64,000 nt of DNA from contig NZ_CP065856.1 of NCBI RefSeq assembly GCF_016065055.1, forward strand, positions 4,029,836-4,093,835, in the 5' to 3' direction. The DNA comes from Halosimplex litoreum. Lineage in GTDB: Archaea > Halobacteriota > Halobacteria > Halobacteriales > Haloarculaceae. Numbering within the stretch: position 1 is the first letter of the stretch; every line of letters starts with the position of its first letter. The notes below the pieces were generated by a model. That model was not told the origin of the DNA. It searched no databases and worked only from the letters and a program-made list of their open reading frames with translations. Positions 12,868 through 14,100 of the stretch are shown in pieces. The position numbers were made by a program, and so were the translations under genes.

Positions 12868-13048
12868 ACGCGGACACGTCCTCGGGGTCGACGACTGACG
12901 CGAGCGAGCGCAGCGAGCCCGTCGTCCGGCATTCCCGTGAGGGTAGTGAACGATATGGTTCGAGACAGCAGAGCTGTCTCGTCGTGCCGAAAATCTCCGA
13001 TTTTCGAGCATCTCGTCAGAGCAAGCTCTGACGGTGTCTCTCCCCACG

Positions 13049-13166
13049 TTTTTGCAGCGGCGGATAGGGTCGCGGACCGTCGACCCGCGACCGCAAATCG
13101 TGACGGCGAAGCCGCCACGCGCCCGCGACGCGTCCCCGGCGCGCGGGGAACTCTCCGCTGCAAAAA
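13049..13166. repeat. Long-span inverted repeat
   Basis: TTTTTGCAGCGG at 13049-13060 and its exact complement CCGCTGCAAAAA at 13155-13166 enclose 94 bp of GC-rich sequence. It could be the end of a decayed mobile element or a structured RNA. No transposase is nearby. Confidence 0.45.
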
Positions 13167-13240
13167 GTGGTACCGGCGTGACGGGACTGAGCGAAACCGT
13201 CGGTTTCGCGAATGTCGAGAGACGCCACCGGCGTCTCTCG

Positions 13241-13370
13241 GGATTCGAACCGGAGCCAGACGTGCTCGTTCGCTCCGCTCGCTGCGCGCGACTTCCAGGA
13301 TTCGAACCGGAGGAAGACGTGCTCGTTCGCTTCGCTCACTGCGCGCGACTTCCAGGGTTCGAATCCCGTT
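13241..13370. repeat. 57-bp tandem repeat carrying tRNA T-loop-like core
   Basis: The motif GGATTCGAACCGG starts at 13241 and 13298, and GGGTTCGAATCCCG starts at 13355, exactly 57 bp apart each time. Between them GACGTGCTCGTTCGCT and GCGCGCGACTTCCA recur with few changes. On the minus strand the core reads like a tRNA T-arm. There are two full units and a third partial one. Confidence 0.75.
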
Positions 13371-13500
13371 CCGGTTCGGTCGCGCGAGCCGAGGCTCGCG
13401 CTCCCTGCACGGGCGTGGCGGGACCGAGCGAAACCGCAGGTTTCGCGAGGGCCGCCACGCCCGCGAGCGTGTTCCGAGCGGACGCGAGGAACCGCGAAGC

Positions 13501-13523
13501 GGGCGTGGCGGGATTCGAACCCG
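13501..13523. repeat. Exact duplicate of the tRNA-Arg 3' end (att-like)
   Basis: Positions 13501-13523 are identical to 13598-13620, the acceptor and T-arm end of tRNA-Arg. A shorter copy, GGGCGTGGCGGGA, occurs near 13414. Duplicated tRNA 3' ends commonly mark integration sites. No integrase gene is present in the window. Confidence 0.6.
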
Positions 13524-13596
13524 ATGCGAGACTCGCTTCGCTCGTCTCGCGTGATTCGAATCCCGCCATGCCGGTTCGCTCCCTACGGTCGCTGCA

Positions 13597-13669
13597 CGGG
13601 CGTGGCGGGATTCGAACCCGCGATCGAGGGGTTAGGAACCCCTCGCCCTGTCCCCTAGGCCACACGCCC
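13597..13669 (-). tRNA. tRNA-Arg (anticodon CCU)
   Basis: The 73-nt minus-strand sequence folds as a standard cloverleaf. The acceptor stem is GGGCGUG paired with CACGCCC. The D arm is GCCU...GGGC. The anticodon stem is AGGGG/CCCCU around the loop UUCCUAA, with anticodon CCU. The variable loop is short, and the T arm is GCGGG-UUCGAAU-CCCGC. The discriminator base is G and CCA is not encoded. It decodes AGG. No intron is visible. Confidence 0.95.
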
Positions 13670-13746: not shown

Positions 13747-14067
13747 TCAGTTCGAGGACGAGGACGAGTCCGAGGAGTCGATGGACGCCTCGGTCTCGCG
13801 CTCGGCCTCGGTCTTGAGGATCTCGCCGTCTTCGTCGACGATGTTGCCGTCGTCGTCGATAGTCGCGCCCTCTTTCATCTCCTCGAGCTCTGCCTCGACC
13901 TGCTCGCGACCCTTCTGGAACTCGCCCATGGCCTGGCCGGTCGACCGCGCGAGTTTCGGGATCTTGTTGGCGCCGAACAGTAGCACGGCGATCAACAGGA
14001 TCACGATCAGTTCCGTCCCGCCCGGCATGCCCCCGACCGGGAACAGGGGGATGAGTGTATCCATCAT
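13747..14067 (-). CDS. tatA: Twin-arginine translocase TatA subunit
   Basis: A 106-residue single-pass membrane protein that forms the pore of the Tat system, the main export route in haloarchaea. It has one N-terminal transmembrane helix (ELIVILLIAVLLFGANKIPKLARS), the FG hinge, an amphipathic helix (GQAMGEFQKGREQVE) and a long acidic tail ending in Ser repeats. The start is ATG 14067 or the adjacent ATG 14064; a TATA box 26-33 bp upstream supports this pair over a longer frame. Substrates in this window include the Tat lipoproteins at 25416, 30843 and 62060. Confidence 0.92.
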   Translation of the reverse strand: MMDTLIPLFPVGGMPGGTELIVILLIAVLLFGANKIPKLARSTGQAMGEFQKGREQVEAELEEMKEGATIDDDGNIVDEDGEILKTEAERETEASIDSSDSSSSSN

Positions 14068-14092
14068 CTCTACCCGACGCTTACTCGACGCC

Positions 14093-14100
14093 AATTATAA
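14093..14100 (-). promoter_or_regulatory. TATA box for tatA
   Basis: On the minus strand TTATAATT lies 26-33 bp upstream of the tatA ATG at 14067, implying a leaderless mRNA. Confidence 0.6.

Follow-up and report, generated by a model that had tools for sequence, protein, structure and literature searches.

The tRNA-Arg(CCU) gene of Halosimplex litoreum, which was analysed here within a 64,000-nucleotide stretch of the genome (the window), is followed by an array of short units that are bounded by copies of the 3' end of the tRNA gene. We propose that these units are miniature integrative cassettes without ORFs, stacked one behind another at the 3' end of the gene, and that tyrosine recombinases probably move them in trans; we would put the probability of this reading at about 0.55. 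The results suggest that such cassettes are very small insertion elements of haloarchaea and form an undescribed family. Mobile DNA in prokaryotes commonly inserts at the 3' ends of tRNA genes.

The genome is a single contig of 4.158 Mb with 45 tRNA genes, and the parts of the array are listed in Table 1. Cassette 1 consists of a leader, an inverted copy of the T-arm (about 13552-13572), a GC hairpin and, at 13500-13523, an exact copy of the last 24 bases of the tRNA gene (13597-13620), of which 23 had been recognised in a preliminary description of this DNA. In cassette 2, an inverted copy of the acceptor end (13452-13463) is followed by a hairpin and by an exact 14-nt copy of the tRNA end (13410-13423), which had previously been noticed in part near 13414. 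The T-loop-like core that had been described as recurring every 57 bp, at about 13241, 13298 and 13355, was also found and corresponds to the T-arm ends of overlapping hairpin units, which we call type-B units. The first of these is made up of an inverted T-arm, an AGTCGC...ACGTCT core and a direct T-arm, and it overlaps the second with a T-arm in common, which is the source of the 57-bp repeat. The next copy of the tRNA end is decayed (13173-13186, 2 mismatches in 14). The inverted T-arm and acceptor copies inside each unit had gone unreported, as had the extension of the pattern over the genome described below.

Table 1. Features of the tRNA-Arg(CCU) locus (positions in the window; z, fold as DNA against shuffled sequence)
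Feature	Position	Strand	Remarks
tRNA-Arg(CCU) gene	13597..13669	-	3' end (13597) is the insertion point
Cassette 1, 97 bp	13500..13596	-	absent from H. carlsbadense; z -3.6
Cassette 2, 90 bp	13410..13499	-	directly behind the tRNA in H. carlsbadense; z -5.0
Type-B hairpin unit	13294..13369	-	covariance model E 8.3e-20; z -4.9
Second type-B unit	13237..13312	-	covariance model E 5.7e-16; own fold unexceptional, z -0.84
Two hairpins ending in decayed tRNA-end copy	13173..13250	-	segment 13172-13250, z -3.8
T-rich hairpin module (TACCACTTTTTGCAGCGG ... GCAAAAACGTGGGG), last part of the array	13040..13172	-	segment 13040-13171, z -4.1

Five of the six minus-strand segments of the array folded as DNA better than all of 200 shuffled sequences (z -3.6 to -5.0). 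When 14-mers resembling the T-arm were counted in either orientation with up to 2 mismatches, 6 were found in the 600 nt downstream of the gene; 500 first-order Markov controls contained 0.016 on average and never more than 1. The association with tRNA 3' ends also extends over the whole genome: the last 16 nt of the gene itself (≤2 mismatches) recurred within 600 nt downstream of 19 of the 45 tRNA genes and upstream of none, while the ends of other tRNAs gave no match in 1794 control pairs. With the last 12 nt and exact identity, the numbers were 16 of 45 downstream, 0 of 45 upstream and 0 of 1976 pairs with other tRNAs. G+C-rich hairpins are common in haloarchaea, and similarity by chance in a G+C-rich genome might be considered on that account, but it is refuted by the tRNA-end, upstream-match and Markov controls and its probability is negligible. 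The repeats behind tRNA-Arg(CCU) are genuine and greatly exceed what chance would produce.

A haloarchaeon of another family (G113) gave a similar picture, with copies of the own end downstream of 14 of the 30 tRNAs sampled (out of 42) and upstream of none, whereas a non-haloarchaeal member of the same phylum (G066) had 2 downstream and 2 upstream in a sample of 30 of its 50 tRNAs. Tandem duplication of a whole tRNA was apparent in both downstream matches of G066; this explanation did not apply to the haloarchaea. The flanks were split at the tRNA-end copies, as global alignment of the flanks was too noisy. Over the own genome, H. carlsbadense and G113, 79 copies were counted, and the length of their identity to the tRNA end was bimodal, with modes at 14 and 22 nt; most copies that form cassette borders measured 13-16 or 21-25 nt. 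The cassettes had a median length of 132 bp (range 63-262) and contained no ORF, and part of their length is taken up by the tRNA copy and the hairpin. None of the 79 copies was followed by CCA, and copying from a mature tRNA, as by a SINE-like retroelement, was therefore rejected. Two other kinds of repeat were noticed: downstream of a tRNA-Leu(GAG) (L085), there is a different, longer tandem hairpin repeat of about 170-190 bp, the units of which end in CCCACGCA, the end of that tRNA, and which is perhaps another class of cassette; and at three loci of G113 (L250, L251, L260) a T-rich hairpin module (CTCGCAAAAACTTGGGGAAAA) resembling window positions 13040-13172 lies behind several tRNAs.

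The arrays change from species to species. The comparisons were made between species rather than strains, and the names of the relatives, H. pelagicum (G003), H. salinum (G004) and H. carlsbadense (G007), were inferred. The number of cassettes differed from that in H. carlsbadense at 14 of the 40 orthologous tRNAs compared (the other 5 of the 45 had no exact match to the 22-nt 3' end), and more than half of the tRNAs carried no cassette. At tRNA-Arg(CCU), the 90-bp unit lies directly behind the tRNA in H. carlsbadense and comes after the 97-bp unit in the own genome, and the flank following the 90-bp unit is homologous from base 0, so that the 97-bp cassette is exactly present in one species and absent from the other. 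Similarly, two cassettes separate the tRNA from the T-rich module in G002, while the start of the module adjoins the tRNA directly in H. pelagicum, and the two flanks are identical at 155 of 165 positions from base 0. The H. pelagicum locus was not accepted as an empty site, because the first module there has a decayed copy of the tRNA end at its own terminus, and we describe this locus only as lacking the two proximal cassettes. A copy was present at 24 of 28 tRNA-Arg(CCU) loci, a rate biased by the collection of these loci through their similarity to the window.

A true empty site was found at tRNA-Ile(GAT). In the own genome, this tRNA (908081-908154) is followed by an element of about 9.1 kb, a tRNA-end copy, a type-B cassette of 135 bp and then the flank. 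The element (C1:908081-917436, L168) contains an integrase ORF (916209-917220) and is absent from H. carlsbadense, in which the tRNA runs straight into the orthologous flank, with a local alignment score of 1318 over about 990 nt; unrelated flanks reached at most 44 over 400-nt stretches. This was the only fully empty site with unmistakable flank homology; the flanks of most differing loci have diverged. Ser-cga resembled, by eye, a pair of empty and filled sites and was not counted, its flank score of 40 being below the maximum of 44 for unrelated flanks.

Such differences could also have arisen if hairpin repeats were spread and lost only by general processes, such as slippage, fold-back template switching and recombination between short direct repeats, with no site-specific recombinase acting at present. 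Short-repeat recombination is the main rival to the cassette reading and explains losses and tandem duplications well; homologous recombination over repeats of 14-24 bp could account for many of the losses and some of the gains. For example, the tandem, near-identical units behind Gly-tcc (74 bp) and Arg-gcg (64 bp) look like duplications, deletion mediated by repeats of usually less than 20 bp has been reported in Haloquadratum (available part of PMC3119063), no recombinase is linked to the arrays, and fold-back copying would also yield arms that covary. However, the cassette at tRNA-Ile is missing from an orthologous site that is empty and whose flank does not contain it, several of the gains are proximal to the tRNA, integrase elements use the same point, and identical cores occur at tRNAs with different 3' ends. 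We therefore regard an origin by general processes only as rather unlikely.

The cores common to different tRNA loci are seen as exact shared stretches, of 71 nt behind Gly-ccc and Ser-gga in the own genome, 59 nt behind Val-gac and Val-cac in H. carlsbadense, and 87 and 47 nt in G113, where the two loci of the 87-nt pair have the same tRNA-end letters, so that exchange between like tRNAs is also possible. Upstream of tRNAs the longest shared match was 14-16 nt. In the Val-gac cassette of H. carlsbadense, the left arm is complementary to the T-loop of Val-cac and the right end carries the T-loop of Val-gac, an arrangement which fits a cassette that would have come from one tRNA and taken its closing copy from the other.

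The type-B units are built on a common plan, in which an inverted T-arm is followed by a short asymmetric loop, a 5-bp stem, AGTCGC, a variable G+C-rich hairpin, ACGTCT, the other side of the stem, a direct T-arm and the acceptor end. For the analysis of covariation, 87 units were collected by pattern, of which 84 were distinct and 47 remained after near-identical ones had been thinned; five were left out by hand as chance-like, truncated or otherwise awkward, and 42 were aligned. Because the pattern demands AGTC..C and GTCT, those columns are invariant by selection. In the alignment, 13 of the 21 pairs had changes on both sides, and the covariation score was 0.315. Shuffling gave 0.140, with none of 500 shuffles reaching the observed value, and slid controls did not exceed 0.120. 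The covariation is partly forced, since the right arm copies the tRNA. However, covariation is also seen at the three variable inner-stem pairs (GCC/GGC, GGA/TCC, ATC/GAT), which are independent of the tRNA. The inverted arm fits the own tRNA modestly better than others (9.62 versus 7.94 of 14 in the own genome), and for 21 of 79 cassettes the own tRNA was in the top 5% of this fit; that the fit is no better than modest speaks against the cassette reading.

Conserved stems might be taken to mean that the hairpins act as RNA, as 3' trailers, terminators or regulatory tRNA-like RNAs of the tRNA transcript, and a source of tRNA-like RNA had been considered in the preliminary description. The hairpins do lie on the strand of the tRNA, their stems covary, and T-rich starts follow many tRNAs. 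However, the departures from pairing in the type-B stems showed no significant excess of G.U over A.C (p=0.25), and thus nothing points to selection on an RNA; furthermore, the units lack the 5' half of a tRNA, vary in number between sister species as described above and are missing from more than half of the tRNAs. A function as RNA is therefore very improbable, and the proposal of a tRNA-like RNA was not borne out.

When one genome from each of 84,980 species was scanned with the core pattern, from which the letters of the tRNA are absent, 81 stretches with the core were found, and 79 of the 80 listed were haloarchaeal or archaeal by title, the other being a MAG labelled Bacteroidetes. This MAG (L104) shares its tRNA-Val hairpin context with a halobacterial MAG (L163) and was judged likely to be mis-binned. 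Of 83 core matches over the class, 71 lay no more than 700 nt 3' of a tRNA and on the same strand, and the remaining 12 were at loci where ARAGORN found no tRNA. Among these 12, L112, L116 and L149 were cut close to the edge of the locus; Rfam placed a tRNA at the start of L088, L102 and L154, in the last case about 7 kb before the core. At L090, L118, L138 and L154, a tRNA 3' fragment immediately ahead of the hairpin forms the end of an insertion that contains a tyrosine integrase gene; the integrase protein of L138 scored below the PF00589 cut-off and above that of the N-terminal SAM-like domain. A tRNA 3' fragment also precedes the hairpin at L123 and L133, at which no integrase was identified. 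With a covariance model (R1), 27 matches were obtained in the own genome at E≤2.4e-4, of which 25 were behind 17 tRNA genes, one was behind the attR of the tRNA-Ile element and one was a weak hairpin away from tRNAs, the distances between matches and tRNAs being judged by eye. Under strict filters, 31 of 196 genomes of the phylum had matches, all of them members of the own order and none from outside it; two members of the order that were shown had none. One match was on a plasmid of Natronorubrum bangense, also behind tRNA-Val. There was no match in 50,697 phage records and none to one exact pattern in IMG/VR, and thus no free form was seen in these collections.

The preliminary description had suggested that the locus may be a decayed attachment site of several elements. 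In agreement with an attachment site, insertions at the tRNA 3' end are bordered by the repeats, which are not identical in all relatives, so that the refuting condition given there, unchanged repeats that never border an insertion, does not apply. Integrase-bearing elements do occur between a tRNA 3' end and such arrays, at tRNA-Ile here and at the four loci named above. A stretch following tRNA-Pro(GGG), in which the 3' end of this tRNA is copied 7.9 kb downstream, past an integrase match at 125737-126180 (C1:125387-133379, L170), is a second tRNA-inserted element in the own genome. Elements with integrases at the same tRNA ends could suggest that each unit is the decayed remnant of an element that was once larger and encoded an integrase. 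This is improbable, as the units share a conserved, covarying hairpin over the class and behind many kinds of tRNA, which argues for a family of its own rather than for leftovers; in addition, the tRNA-Ile element ends without a type-B hairpin, as judged by eye. The earlier interpretation is thus partly supported, with the part concerning decayed remains of several integrase elements given up.

Exact joining at the tRNA end, the restored tRNA, the closing copy, stacking and the point shared with integrase elements fit site-specific integration of cassettes. The earlier statement that no integrase remains nearby holds: the genome has 6 PF00589 matches, none in the window, with the nearest about 120 kb away, and none of these integrases is beside an array except that of the tRNA-Ile element. 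Because the cassettes encode nothing and the integrases are, with this exception, not beside the arrays, help by tyrosine recombinases in trans is the most likely, and action of archaeal integrases in trans has been reported (available part of PMC8371274). We infer from the sequences a recombinase and a mobile form, and the hairpin may serve as a recognised structure. A cassette, perhaps as a small circle or a folded single strand, would recombine with the tRNA 3' end by using the tyrosine recombinases of resident tRNA-integrating elements. The incoming cassette would restore the tRNA and supply a new downstream leader, and the old tRNA end would remain as the closing copy. Further rounds would build up the stack, and the recent gains are found beside the tRNA.

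Larger tRNA-integrating elements with tyrosine integrases comprise archaeal proviruses, plasmids and islands, for which tandem insertion is known, and like these the cassettes are located at the tRNA 3' end, with the gene restored and a copy of the 3' end at the far end (available part of PMC8371274). Two of their marks, an intact tRNA with a direct copy of its 3' end and an empty site joined exactly at the tRNA end (at tRNA-Ile, and as a partial series at tRNA-Arg(CCU)), were found, while an integrase of their own, as a PF00589 match in the window, was not. In contrast to such elements, the cassettes are only 63-262 bp long, encode nothing, contain a conserved hairpin and are stacked behind many tRNAs. 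An analogy can be drawn with integrons, the attC sites of which fold as imperfect hairpins: their arrays are bounded by these recombination sites and recent gains are proximal, and an imperfect hairpin is also found at the cassette boundary here. However, the cassettes have no gene, the anchor is a tRNA gene, and no PF00589 integrase adjoins the array. The R' core of attC is GTTRRRY, which is not matched by the consensus right arm GGTTCRAATC, as this has C at the fourth place of GTTC. Tentatively, and as a doubtful possibility, one could imagine in haloarchaea a gene-less, integron-like system with tRNA 3' ends as the entry site, in which a recombinase recognising both T-arm and hairpin would capture and stack hairpin cassettes, exchange them between tRNAs and remove them. 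The arrays would then be a lasting landing field where viruses and plasmids that target tRNAs are absorbed or redirected, so that the tRNA genes are spared. A further comparison is with pSSVi, a replicating plasmid of several kb, beside which the cassettes are much smaller, code for nothing and are found at many tRNAs. Non-autonomous integrative plasmids of the pSSVi type are integrated and depend on a related virus, with integrase action in trans reported (PMC8371274, available part). Haloarchaeal MITEs, PATEs and other small mobile repeats are likewise short and gene-less, and several are palindromic, but these repeats are related to transposons or have inverted ends, whereas the cassettes are bounded by tRNA 3'-end copies and lie behind tRNAs (PMC3119063, in the part available). 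In the open-licence literature searched, including the available parts of PMC3119063, PMC8371274, PMC7230728 and PMC11078007, we found no description of the arrays, and they may have been described before elsewhere; a class-wide family of miniature cassettes at tRNA 3' ends is thus apparently undescribed.

Movement in trans, if it occurs, would place the cassettes among the smallest elements that depend on an integrase and would make them a natural assay for recombination at tRNA sites in archaea. Many puzzling repeats beside haloarchaeal tRNAs would also be explained by such cassettes, which could possibly be used as fast strain markers. At the other side of the tRNA-Arg(CCU) gene, a small adjoining ORF on the minus strand (13747-14094) resembles, as judged by eye, a TatA/E-type translocase protein.
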